DNA from: a virus
DNA length: 33,984 nucleotides
Virus record (IMG/VR): IMGVR_UViG_3300042888_000057
Location: 1 to 33,984 of that record
Direction: 5' to 3' (one strand)
The position numbers and the translations under genes were made by a program. The first letter of the stretch is position 1, and every line of letters starts with the position of its first letter. The notes beneath the pieces are model-generated. The model was not told the origin of the DNA. It was given only the letters and a program-made list of their open reading frames with translations, and did not search any database. Positions 10,165-16,776 of the stretch are shown in pieces.

Positions 10165-10178
10165 TTAAGATAGGTTAA
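10165..10178. promoter_or_regulatory. Operator O5, TTAAG-ATAG-GTTAA
   Basis: A 14-bp imperfect palindrome matching the other four sites with one change in the second half (C to G). It begins where the -10 box of the leftward promoter ends, thus covering the expected transcription start before the terminase genes. Binding there would block late transcription. Confidence 0.65.
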
Positions 10179-12123: not shown

Positions 12124-12978
12124 TTAATCTCCGCAGAAACAGGCAATGCCTTCTTCATCTGGGTCAAATATTGTTTTTTGGTCTGCCGCAAACTTAACCA
12201 TGCTTTCATAATTTGGACGGTCTTTGCGAAAAGTCGCACCGCTTGGCTTGGATGCCAATGCCAATGCCAATGCCTCCATTTTAACCCACCAGACCGCTCT
12301 TTCGGGTTTTTCTGCTATTAGTGTTGCGACCTGATTGGCTGGTTTTAAAAAACACAAATCGCAATTTCCTGCCAAAGTTCTGCCTTTGTATGTTGGCAAT
12401 TCAAGATTAAATGGTTGGTTTTCCCAAAATTTACCAATGTCTTGAACGCTTACTTTAGCTGTAAACAATGGAATTCTGCGTTTATCAGTTATTTTTGCTG
12501 CTCTGCGTCCTTCGTCAAACCTTAACCCTATCCACGATGCGTTCTCAAGTTCAGATTTAGTGCAATCGTCAAATAAACCAGAGTGTTTTAAAAAACACGC
12601 CATTGTGCGTATTTTTAGCTCGCTTGTGCAAAATCTTGTTACTGGGTTTGGCAAATACTGACGCTTGCGGATAATTGCCTCAAATGGCTCACCGTTACGA
12701 GCTGCTGTTTCGTAAGTAACTTCTTTGTACCTATTTTCCGGCAATTCATGGTCTTGGTACTCAATCCAATGTATTTTGACACCCCAATTCACAGAACAAT
12801 CATTTACAAACTTGAGCGTTGCTTCTTCCTCTTTGCCTGTGTTGGCAAAACATACTATTGCTTGGTTAGGCAATTGCCCCCCCCCAGCTTCTAAGACTTT
12901 CTTTAACATATATGCAGATGTTCTGCCACCGCTAAAACTTATGCAAGTAGGTTCTGTAATTTCGTATGGGTTTAGCAT
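12124..12978 (-). CDS. PAPS-reductase-like PP-loop protein
   Basis: A 284-aa protein of the adenine-nucleotide alpha-hydrolase / PAPS reductase superfamily. Residues 14-24 give ISFSGGRTSAY, the SGGxTS PP-loop that binds ATP or PAPS phosphate; IVCFANTGKEEEATLKFV (about 41-58) is the second strand. Cys residues occur as CDLCFLKP (about 205-212) and near the end as ACFCGD, so an Fe-S cluster or thiol chemistry is possible. Relatives include CysH and DndC. Many phages carry a member of unknown role; here it is two genes from a glycosyltransferase. A run of nine G on the coding strand (12885-12877) encodes part of EAGGGQ. The start overlaps the YbcO-like gene's stop. Confidence 0.8.
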   Translation of the reverse strand: MLNPYEITEPTCISFSGGRTSAYMLKKVLEAGGGQLPNQAIVCFANTGKEEEATLKFVNDCSVNWGVKIHWIEYQDHELPENRYKEVTYETAARNGEPFEAIIRKRQYLPNPVTRFCTSELKIRTMACFLKHSGLFDDCTKSELENASWIGLRFDEGRRAAKITDKRRIPLFTAKVSVQDIGKFWENQPFNLELPTYKGRTLAGNCDLCFLKPANQVATLIAEKPERAVWWVKMEALALALASKPSGATFRKDRPNYESMVKFAADQKTIFDPDEEGIACFCGD

Positions 12979-13408: not shown

Positions 13409-13728
13409 TTTGTCATCCTCTCAAGGTTGCGGTTGCTTGCTTGCTCGGTTCTCCATGCGTCAAAGCGCATTTTTGCACTTTCTAGCCGCCAGCGCAGTAA
13501 TTCTGCCTGTTCTGTTGCTTCCCCAATAGCTTTGCACAGGTTCTGATAGTCTGGGTGTGCGTATGCTTCACGTTCCTGAGCACCAATAGCCGTTTCGTAG
13601 CTTTGCTTCATTAGGATGGCTTTTAGGCTAGATTTGTAGGTCTCCAACTCTGCCAATTTGCCCTTTGCGGCGGCAAACTCAGGCGCTGTTTTGTAGATAT
13701 AGTCGATTGCGTCGTGTTGGTCTTTCAT
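13405..13728 (-). CDS. Conserved phage helical protein
   Basis: A 107-aa all-helical protein. The phrase SSLKAILMKQSYETAIGAQE followed by REAYAHPDY and RWRLESAKMRFDAWRTEQ is one I recall from conserved small proteins near phage replication and recombination genes; I do not know a demonstrated function. The pattern suggests an antiparallel coiled coil. Its start overlaps the glycosyltransferase stop (ATGA) and its stop overlaps the 58-aa start. Confidence 0.75.
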   Translation of the reverse strand: MKDQHDAIDYIYKTAPEFAAAKGKLAELETYKSSLKAILMKQSYETAIGAQEREAYAHPDYQNLCKAIGEATEQAELLRWRLESAKMRFDAWRTEQASNRNLERMTK

Positions 13729-14561
13729 TTTTCTACCTTTTTTAATTTCATCCCGTATTCGTTAATTCCTTCCGGTATTACTAACCCTTCTTTGCGCTTT
13801 AAAACATTGCGTTTAAACACACTGTAGTCAACTTGATGATGCCATCTACCATAGCGCCGCACTACGCTTGCCATGTCGGGATGGTAATCAACCAACATTT
13901 GCGACTTTTCTAAGTTTTTCTCACCGTTCTCGTAAATTTCTTCCGTGTTGCCGCCTTTAATTGTCAATGTTGCTGCCTTGTTTTGTAGAAAACATCTAAA
14001 CATGATGGTGCAATAACCATCTTTTAGCGCCCTCAACGACAAATCTGCATCTTCGTTGTATTTCAATCGCCAGCGATACGGAATGTCGTTTCTAATCAAT
14101 ATGCAAGAAAAAATCCTAGTATTGGTTATAAATGCTGCTTTTTTACGCCTGTTGCCGCCTGCAAAAAACCTGTATTCAAACCCTGCTTGTGCAACATTTT
14201 CGTATCTGTTTACAAAATCTTCGGACGCTTTAAAGATTGACCCTGAAGTAACTGGTATGCGCTCGTTTCTGTTTAGTCTTACAAATCCGTCTATGTTGTC
14301 ATCCAGTATCCAATGAAATTTTGCACCATTTTCTATTGAATGCTCCCAACAAAAGTTACGAGCTGGGTACGAGCCTAAGCCATGATTGCTAAACGGTAAT
14401 ATAAGTATTTTGCTTGGGTCAATCACACTGGCGTATTTGTCGTACTCTTGCGGTTCAACAGCAATTTTGTATGGAACGCCCATCTTTTCAAGCGCTTTAC
14501 TCGTTAAGCGACTTTCCCACCTTCCTTTGGAAATTATATAAATTGGGTAATCAGGATTCAT
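13725..14561 (-). CDS. TET-associated-type glycosyltransferase (TAGT-like)
   Basis: A 278-aa protein that begins PDYPIYIISKGRWESRLTSK, then VPYKIAVEPQEYDKYASVID, SYPARNFCWEHS and FHWILDDNIDGFVRLNR. The WILDDN motif is the metal/sugar-nucleotide-binding acidic motif of GT-A-fold enzymes (compare DxD). YNEDADLSLRALKDGY (about 187-202) is a second conserved acidic region. This fits the TAGT family described by comparative genomics as adding sugars to hydroxymethylated bases in phage DNA. No TET/JBP dioxygenase or hydroxymethylase is visible here, so the acceptor is unknown. The gene overlaps its neighbours on both sides. Confidence 0.75.
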   Translation of the reverse strand: MNPDYPIYIISKGRWESRLTSKALEKMGVPYKIAVEPQEYDKYASVIDPSKILILPFSNHGLGSYPARNFCWEHSIENGAKFHWILDDNIDGFVRLNRNERIPVTSGSIFKASEDFVNRYENVAQAGFEYRFFAGGNRRKKAAFITNTRIFSCILIRNDIPYRWRLKYNEDADLSLRALKDGYCTIMFRCFLQNKAATLTIKGGNTEEIYENGEKNLEKSQMLVDYHPDMASVVRRYGRWHHQVDYSVFKRNVLKRKEGLVIPEGINEYGMKLKKVEK

Positions 14562-15549: not shown

Positions 15550-15692
15550 TTGTGCGCCTTATAAAATTTGTTGCACCACTCGCATAACCCGTCTATTAGC
15601 GTTGAAACTTGTCCACAACAATCACAAACAGGTTCAACAGGGTGTTGCTCTTTCTGGAGTTTGTCCCTAATCCACTCGACTAATGTTTTCAT
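15546..15692 (-). CDS. 48-aa zinc-ribbon-like protein
   Basis: A short open frame: MKTLVEWIRDKLQKEQHP, then VCDCCGQVSTLIDGLCEWCN, ending KFYKAHK. Two CxxC-type pairs (CDCC and CEWC) 14-17 residues apart form a plausible zinc ribbon. The ATG lies 26 bases inside the winged-helix gene and the stop overlaps the next start as ATGA, so it fits the operon's coupling pattern. It may be a small DNA- or protein-binding factor. Confidence 0.65.
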   Translation of the reverse strand: MKTLVEWIRDKLQKEQHPVEPVCDCCGQVSTLIDGLCEWCNKFYKAHK

Positions 15693-15993
15693 ACTTGTTG
15701 TTTGCCCAGTAAAGTTGACCAAATATACCTTCGTGTTGATTTGCTAGTTTTAATGCTTGCTCAGTTGCATTCTTGTTCTTTAGTGGATACCTGTACACCC
15801 GAATGTAGCGACCACCATTATTTGCTTTTGTGTCCCTGATTCCTCTGTCAATGTCAAAAAACGCTTTTGTCTTTAAAGCTGTACGAATGTGGTTGTGCGC
15901 TATTCCAGTGATTTCAGCTATCTCTGTTGCGCTTAACCAATCGTTCTGTTTAATCGCTGTCAAAATCCGTTGTTGCGTGTTTGTCAGTGCCAT
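15667..15993 (-). CDS. Winged-helix DNA-binding protein
   Basis: A 108-aa protein from the ATG at 15993, chosen because AGGAGA lies four bases upstream; an open frame extends to 16035 but would run through the operator. Residues 1-60 form a helix-turn-helix: LTNTQQRILTAIKQNDWLSA, TEIAEITGIAHNHIRTALKT, then a wing-like YIRVYRYPLK. The rest is a short helical tail. It opens the leftward early operon and could be a regulator or the DNA-binding half of a replication initiator whose loader half is at 14784-15158. Confidence 0.75.
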   Translation of the reverse strand: MALTNTQQRILTAIKQNDWLSATEIAEITGIAHNHIRTALKTKAFFDIDRGIRDTKANNGGRYIRVYRYPLKNKNATEQALKLANQHEGIFGQLYWANNKYENISRVD

Positions 15994-16009: not shown

Positions 16010-16023
16010 TTAAGATAGCTTAA
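16010..16023. promoter_or_regulatory. Operator O1, TTAAG-ATAG-CTTAA
   Basis: A 14-bp site with perfect 5-bp inverted arms. It lies 17 bp before the winged-helix start, between an A/T-run region and the AGGAGA ribosome binding site. On the minus strand TTGAAT stands near a -35 position, but no convincing -10 box is seen. It is the best match to the shared motif and probably governs the leftward early operon. Confidence 0.72.
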
Positions 16024-16408
16024 TACTGTATTCAAAAAAAAGCAAATTTTTTGTTGTTTTTTTATAAAACATATTCTTTAGACAATAGTACCCCTACCCT
16101 TATACCCACCCACCTGCAACTGAGGGTAGATATAAATCCTTTACGACAGAACTCTGCTTGTTAGCTTACGGAGAGTCATTCCGCCCACCCCCAAATCCCG
16201 TTAATCAGCGTTCATATTAACGATAGGTGCATTTCAGCACTACTCGGCGTATTGGTAATAGTTGGTTTCCCAACTCTGTCTATATACCTTTCCCTTTCGG
16301 TACTTGGTCGTGCGGGTCACACGGGAAGCACTTTGCTAGTCATTATTATCAGTTTTCTTCCACGCCGCCCTGACAGGCTCTTGCTTTCGTATGGAGTACG
16401 GGAGCAAT

Positions 16409-16495
16409 AAAAAAACCGATTTAGTCAATGCCCCTCTGGAACGCAGCTTTTTTAAGGCTGAACCCCTTGCGGGGCGGGACATTGAATAAATCGGT
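16409..16495 (-). terminator. Large stem-loop with T-run downstream of repressor
   Basis: Arms 16415-16423 and 16487-16495 pair over 9 bp, followed after one mismatch by six more pairs (16425-16430/16480-16485) and three G-C pairs. On the minus strand the stem is followed by seven T (16415-16409), the form of an intrinsic terminator for the repressor transcript. The loop holds two further hairpins, which is much more than a terminator needs. Confidence 0.6.
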
Positions 16496-16515
16496 CTTAT
16501 CTCATCGGCGTTCCA
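16437..16515. ncRNA. Candidate pseudoknotted structured RNA element
   Basis: TGGAACGC at 16437-16444, inside the large stem-loop, is perfectly complementary to GCGTTCCA at 16508-16515, outside it. The second segment itself sits in the loop of a small hairpin (16505-16508/16519-16522). An 8-bp loop-loop contact crossing a stem is the geometry of a pseudoknot. Strand is uncertain: GNRA loops and the T-run favour minus, while the G-T pairs in the 16381-16407 hairpin favour plus. No known RNA family is recognised. Confidence 0.4.
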
Positions 16516-16554
16516 ATTCCGACAATACGACTTAATTATCTACTAATTTTTAAC

Positions 16555-16776
16555 CTAATGCAACTCAGGCCAGATTTGTTTCCAATTTTCAGGGAAAATA
16601 TCTTTCCGGTGTATCACCCCTTGCGACAGTCGCTCAAGTTCGGCAGCCATAAATATCAGCTTGTCTGGCGGGATTCCGTTGTTCTTCCACTGGCTAACGG
16701 CTGGCACACTAACCCCGCACAACTTTGCAACCTTAGTTGTGCCCCCTAGAATCGTGATGATTTTGCTGTTATCCAT
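16555..16776 (-). CDS. Cro/C1-like repressor
   Basis: A 73-aa DNA-binding protein: IITILGGTTKVAKLCGVSVP, then AVSQWKNNGIPPDKLIFMAA, ending in a short acidic/aromatic tail (FPENWKQIWPELH). The helix-turn-helix 'TKVAKLCGVSVPAVSQWKNNG' with I-P-P-x-x-x-x-x-L is typical of Cro/YdaS-type regulators. It diverges from the ERF operon in the layout of a lambdoid switch. It is probably the protein that binds the TTAAG-WTAG-CTTAA sites, one of which abuts its own start codon. There is no Shine-Dalgarno and TAAGAT lies 7-12 bases before the ATG, so the message may be leaderless. No larger CI-type protein with a cleavage domain is present. Confidence 0.8.
   Translation of the reverse strand: MDNSKIITILGGTTKVAKLCGVSVPAVSQWKNNGIPPDKLIFMAAELERLSQGVIHRKDIFPENWKQIWPELH

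Follow-up and report, generated by a model that had tools for sequence, protein, structure and literature searches.

Two adjacent structured RNAs behind a cro-like phage gene, the first a candidate pseudoknot-assisted attenuator

Introduction

In phage lambda the terminator tR1 is located between cro and cII-O-P; it is not known to contain a pseudoknot or to have a promoter directly in front of it. GOLLD, ROOL and HEARO are structured noncoding RNAs that are often phage-borne. In phage HK022, putL and putR are cis-acting RNAs of about 70 nt with two stem-loops, which lie behind an early phage promoter and affect termination (PMC9378689). Within the open-licence literature, the closest working precedent that we found for the locus described here would be, as regards arrangement only, IsrK, a small RNA of the Gifsy-1 prophage with its own promoter and terminator, where transcription past the terminator produces a downstream mRNA and another stable RNA (PMC4825925).

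Here we analyse a virus record from IMG/VR of 33,984 bases (the window), in which two RNAs, B and A1, are predicted behind a cro-like gene; the evidence on this RNA cassette is comparative throughout. Like tR1, B is a terminator between cro and replication genes. Its place is similar to that of the put RNAs, which lack a built-in terminator and belong to an E. coli phage. The arrangement of IsrK (private promoter, terminator, genes reached by read-through) is found in relatives of the window that carry a B element of class B2, not in the window itself, and is a likeness of layout only; PMC4825925 mentions no pseudoknot, and IsrK has antQ and anrP as neighbours in a Salmonella prophage instead of lying between cro and replication genes. 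B and A1 are smaller than GOLLD, ROOL and HEARO and have no match to Rfam models. In some relatives the A slot behind B is occupied by the Betaproteobacteria-1 RNA (RF02932), which is a different RNA from the A1 of the window.

Results and Discussion

Genomic setting and homologues

The window encodes phage terminase, portal, tail, holin and endolysin, nearly all on the minus strand, with a block of ERF recombinase, SSB and exonuclease genes in opposite orientation to most genes. Neither an integrase nor a CI-type repressor was recognised among the scanned window genes. The gene-free part extends from the start of one minus-strand gene to the end of another:

16555..16776, minus strand: cro-like gene, upstream of the RNA cassette (P22_Cro PF14549, YdaS PF15943)
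15667..15993, minus strand: next gene, small protein of unknown function, with an operator-like site in front (16010-16023)

The operator-like repeat TTAAGCTATCTTAA is found at 10165, 16010, 16776, 16840 and 18877, giving 10 matches in the window when both strands are counted, against 3.8 expected. It is a palindrome whose five sites are intergenic or at gene starts, including the front of the terminase/structural block and the divergent cro/ERF promoters, and these sites probably constitute a Cro regulon. Elsewhere in the window, a TET-associated glycosyltransferase-like gene (13725-14561, PF20691) suggests hypermodified phage DNA, and an auxiliary gene at 12124-12978 is phosphoadenosine phosphosulfate reductase-like.

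At the DNA level, the whole region had no match among named phages and plasmids. Homologues, present in about 100 phage contigs, were found via the neighbouring proteins (ERF, next-gene, Cro) and one A1 motif; the protein searches fetched more than 120 viral loci, of which some are stretches of the same contig that overlap. The homologues are nearly all metagenomic, the named records being MW202520 (B2) and MW202674 (B1 and A2). The ERF alignment and a motif of the A-slot type A3 found nothing in 84,980 bacterial genomes. Relatives display two separate conserved blocks, of which B immediately follows cro and A comes next.

Structure of the region as a whole

The initial annotation had proposed a single structured RNA in about 530 bp without a gene. 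The structure holds, but the single RNA is replaced by two adjacent ones on the minus strand. That strand folds with z = -4.9 over 16065-16554 (0 of 100 dinucleotide shuffles equally low), while the plus strand of the region folds more weakly (z = -2.7). The inverted repeats reported at the outset are real, the large one having arms at 16412-16434 and 16476-16498 that are 87% complementary, and there are many smaller repeats besides. Over its 8 nt the reported pairing is perfect, 16437-16444 (TGGAACGC) being the reverse complement of 16508-16515 (GCGTTCCA), and GNRA loops are present on the minus strand in CCCCGCAAGGGG (16463-16474), CCGAAAGG (16293-16300) and GTTGGGAAACCAAC (16261-16274).

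No known large phage RNA or intron core had been recognised by the first reading, and at the gathering score the region is without a match to the 4227 Rfam families, among them GOLLD, ROOL, HEARO and introns. With lax filters the best sub-threshold matches in the region had E = 3 or worse; those to Hatchet and MIR825 in the window, and to a plastid 3'UTR in one relative (L005), were dismissed as likely chance. B and A1 are both absent from Rfam, but the locus is not entirely new, the known Rfam candidate RF02932 being found in the second slot of some relatives. An RNA from the plus strand was rejected on its weaker fold and on covariance-model matches which are weak and mirror the minus-strand stems. 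A plasmid-like antisense copy-control RNA was also rejected, an antisense promoter being conserved nowhere in the region.

Anatomy and promoter of RNA B

RNA B comprises a 5' hairpin (P1), a pseudoknot and a long terminator hairpin (P2), preceded by a promoter:

16535..16563, minus strand: sigma70-like promoter of B; -35 TTGCAT (16558-16563), 17-bp spacer, -10 GATAAT (16535-16540)
16409..16528, minus strand: RNA B (class B1) with P1, pseudoknot, long P2 and U-tract; fold z = -4.17
16502..16525, minus strand: P1, 5' hairpin, arms 16519-16525 and 16502-16508, loop 16509-16518 (covariation)
16508..16516, minus strand: pseudoknot 5' strand UUGGAACGC (covariation)
16475..16494, minus strand: P2 5' arm (covariation)
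16463..16474, minus strand: P3a hairpin CCCC-GCAA-GGGG, loop type varying among relatives
16445..16459, minus strand: P3b hairpin, loop CUUAAAAAAG, a motif common to class B2
16436..16444, minus strand: pseudoknot 3' strand GCGUUCCAG, inside P2 (covariation)
16416..16435, minus strand: P2 3' arm, adjoined by the U-tract (covariation)
16409..16415, minus strand: U-tract of the intrinsic terminator, seven U

The promoter of B has a mean score of 9.16 over 47 distinct loci, compared with 4.26 (sd 1.97) for shuffled sequence, and its position is the only recurrent promoter position in the region (36 loci, both strands, -300 to +620). P1 begins a median of 5 nt behind the -10 element in the 47 loci, and therefore the RNA should start at P1; the predicted start in the window is at about 16528. 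Unlike the neighbouring promoters, that of B carries no repeat of the TTAAGCTATCTTAA type. In one lineage of relatives (L062, L063, L035, L010 and others) an inverted repeat lies inside the 17-18 bp spacer and varies with compensation (CATCG..CGATG, CACCG..CGGTG, TCTG..CAGA); it may be an operator whose specificity varies, or form a hairpin. In another relative a tRNA gene is located between cro and B (L040:2606-2678).

P2 is a 20-bp hairpin in the window, closed by CCG/CGG and followed by UUUUUUU (16409-16415), which is the make-up of an intrinsic terminator and is kept in relatives. The P1 loop pairs with the interior of this hairpin next to its 3' arm, and the 8-nt pairing (16437-16444/16508-16515) extends to 9 bp. 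As to the remark that a simple terminator would not need such structure, a terminator with a textbook U-tract is present, yet it is an unusual one.

Conservation and covariation of RNA B

Shared by the 48 distinct B sequences are the -35/-10 elements, P1, a long P2 with its U-tract and the complementarity of the P1 loop to the P2 interior. Among these homologues 29 different sequences are seen for the pseudoknot strand, and a Watson-Crick run of at least 7 joins the P1 loop to its own P2 interior in 46 of the 48; when loop and interior were taken from sequences with different pseudoknots, such a run was obtained in 18 of 2080 combinations (0.9%). The sequence of the pseudoknot drifts while its pairing persists, and therefore it is the pairing itself that matters and not its letters. 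The GCAA loop of B is replaced in relatives by UUCG and others.

Covariation of P1, P2 and the pseudoknot was scored on a MAFFT alignment built without structure. P1 and P2 together have 94.4% of cells paired and double changes in 18 of 27 pairs, with a covariation of 0.485 where slid partners do not exceed 0.12. Taken separately, P1 has 88% of cells paired and double changes in 4 of 6 pairs, and P2 has 96% of cells paired over 21 pairs, 14 of them with double changes. For the six pairs of the pseudoknot, 91.6% of cells are paired and covariation reaches 0.635, with slid partners giving 0.232 or less. In P1, P2, the pseudoknot and the helices of A1, compensating changes lie far above shuffled and slid controls, by a wide gap; relatedness is ignored by the shuffle control, not by the slid one. 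A covariance model from the B alignment matches 56 sources, those of the model-building sequences by construction, and the window scores 80.6 bits. Folded on its own, B was equalled by none of 200 shuffles (z = -4.17). On this comparative evidence, with strong covariation in all three elements, B is a genuine structured RNA. A preQ1-like riboswitch does not describe it, P2 and the pseudoknot covarying in one fold that finds no match in Rfam.

The coincidence of the start and end of B with its fold, the exchange of B classes as units and a promoter without the operator-like site of the flanking promoters would suit a stand-alone phage small RNA acting in trans on host or phage RNA or protein, with A1 as a separate RNA. 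We consider this unlikely: complements of P1 elsewhere in its own locus are no better than those of shuffled P1 and about equally numerous, the pseudoknot strand changes so freely that there is no fixed seed, and in the B2 loci the element is the direct leader of a gene.

RNA B as a candidate leader

At ten B2 loci the gene that follows has its start codon 9-11 nt behind the U-run, a Shine-Dalgarno-like sequence adjoins the U-run on its 3' side, and in most of the ten a promoter of comparable strength is absent between U-run and gene. With the start codon this close, the gene must be transcribed through the terminator. In L184 this gene is DUF1376 (Pfam), which occurs on phage replication proteins; eight of the other loci share a similar protein start, from which that of L016 differs. 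A small gene, of 74 aa and without a Pfam match (MNESHKIYLSMG...), is found between B and A in L036 (5183-5407), L038, L032 and L077 with its ribosome site just behind the terminator, the same read-through-dependent position. No conserved promoter was found between B and A1 (36 loci, both strands), and A1 therefore needs read-through of the B terminator; the A-slot RNA A2 likewise lacks a conserved promoter. Since these genes and A1 are reachable only through the terminator, B is read as a terminator-ended leader.

We lean slightly towards B being a pseudoknot-assisted attenuator for the operon behind cro, with a short RNA released as well. A single promoter would give rise to the transcript, whose first 120 nt (B) would fold into P1, the pseudoknot and the terminator. 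Most polymerases would halt there, releasing a short compact RNA, and some would read through into A1 or, in relatives, directly into replication-associated genes, so that B would set how much transcription reaches the operon behind cro. Because the 3' strand of the pseudoknot precedes and adjoins the 3' arm of P2, folding of the terminator could be affected; made just before that arm, the strand might speed, stabilise or delay it. We infer partial or regulated termination, tuned by the pseudoknot, and take A1 to be made from the read-through RNA. Polymerases that read through might have started at the cro promoter, or might be helped by an antitermination factor that acts elsewhere. We found no "antiterminator" fold that would exclude the terminator, P2 and the pseudoknot being both conserved and compatible. 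Counting against a leader, in the window B is followed by A1 rather than by a gene, and the next gene has an operator-like site of its own. The locus provides a testable example of an intrinsic terminator that contains a pseudoknot and precedes replication-associated genes.

Two other readings concern termination itself. Position and U-tract would fit a plain terminator that, like tR1, separates cro from the replication operon, the RNA doing nothing but stop transcription; we think this improbable, as a private promoter, a pseudoknot kept through 29 sequence variants and a second conserved RNA behind would all be superfluous for it. It is also improbable that B (or A) works in cis in the manner of put and makes RNA polymerase ignore downstream terminators, B's own included. 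The RNAs of HK022 lie behind early promoters, are protein-independent and have two stem-loops (PMC9378689), and no N-like protein was recognised among the scanned window genes; however, put RNAs measure about 70 nt and lack a terminator while B ends in one, sequences having been compared via Rfam only.

RNA A1

The second structured RNA follows B on the same strand:

about 16072..16400, minus strand: RNA A1, multi-helix, without a conserved promoter of its own (covariation)
16346..16405, minus strand: A1 5' domain, in the window of A2 type (mosaic)
16293..16300, minus strand: hairpin CC-GAAA-GG, GNRA loop, both pairs exchanged in relatives
16261..16274, minus strand: hairpin GUUGG-GAAA-CCAAC, conserved GNRA loop, covarying stem
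16091..16111, minus strand: G-rich tail GGGTGGGTATAAGGGTAGGGG, invariant in 40/40 distinct A1 copies

On its own A1 folds with z = -1.7 (14 of 200 shuffles as low), and the case for this predicted RNA rests on covariation, not on folding energy. In 28 diverse sequences, 96.8% of cells are paired and 20 pairs have double changes; the structure was derived from the tested alignment, which favours the former figure and makes the double changes the stronger evidence. Covariation is 0.217 against at most 0.043 for slid partners, and both GNRA loops are kept on stems that vary. A core motif of A1 was located in 61 viral contig stretches, and a B-type element lies upstream of it in the stretches listed with enough upstream sequence. 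On one contig (IMGVR_UViG_3300003375_000008) the motif was returned as two loci (L132 and L143), which may mean a second copy or stem from the assembly or the contig end.

The tail matches a G-quadruplex motif, of which the window has only two, and could form such a structure. A long helix between CCCGUGUGACCCGCACG and the G-rich tail, proposed by RNAalifold, was rejected: 13 of its 15 pairs are invariant, and a competing local hairpin shows a C-G/G-C exchange. The invariance of the tail in all 40 copies, the AT-rich DNA behind it, its distance of about 430 nt from the promoter and a replication-type gene downstream would agree with a ColE1-like replication preprimer, in which the B-A transcript forms an R-loop near the origin with its G-rich end. 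We give this little credence, as A2 has no such tail in its alignment and some loci are without any A.

Exchange of RNAs in the two slots

The A slot holds A1 in the window, L027, L033 and others; A2 in L003, L008, L111 and others (covariation 0.287 against at most 0.045); A3, which is the Betaproteobacteria-1 RNA, in L097, L013, L017 and L029; and a candidate RNA, A4, in L005 and L054. RF02932 scores 80-85 bits in the four A3 loci (gathering 49.4), and neither B nor A1 of the window matches this model at any level reported. In the B slot, B1 is found in the window, B2 in L101, L104, L109 and others, and B3 in L044, L046 and L138. B2 and B3 are unlike B1 in sequence and have the same layout of promoter, P1, loop-to-terminator pairing and terminator. 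This pairing, 7-8 nt long in 8 of the 9 B2 versions examined, fails in L006 (4 nt); in B3 it was read by eye. The hairpin loop CUUAAAAAAG is common to B1 and B2.

The combinations seen are B1-A1, B1-A2, B1-A3, B2-A3 and B3-A1, and the A1 of the window itself carries a 5' domain of A2 type. Judged from these sequences, B and A types combine freely, and relatives swap unrelated RNAs into both slots. More tentatively, and with rather less than even confidence, the region may represent a new class of RNA-based early switch, modular and with two slots, where whole cassettes are exchanged between cro and the replication operon. The same tentative reading would include at least three pseudoknot-terminator leaders in the B slot, in which a 5' loop grips the terminator, and at least four structured RNAs in the A slot. 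At least two covariation-supported RNA families, B1 and A1, are added to phage biology, together with the further candidates A2, which covaries, and B2 and B3, which are less tested; the orphan Betaproteobacteria-1 RNA is placed in a defined genomic slot.

In the two named records, small genes are annotated over these RNAs. In MW202520 (L184, 3361-3579) a small hypothetical protein, UOF78209, covers the B2 RNA, and in MW202674 (L185, 3088-3584) UOF80261-UOF80264 lie over B1 and A2 on the opposite strand. These GenBank genes are likely spurious, and their presence in two public records implies that such RNAs are readily overlooked.
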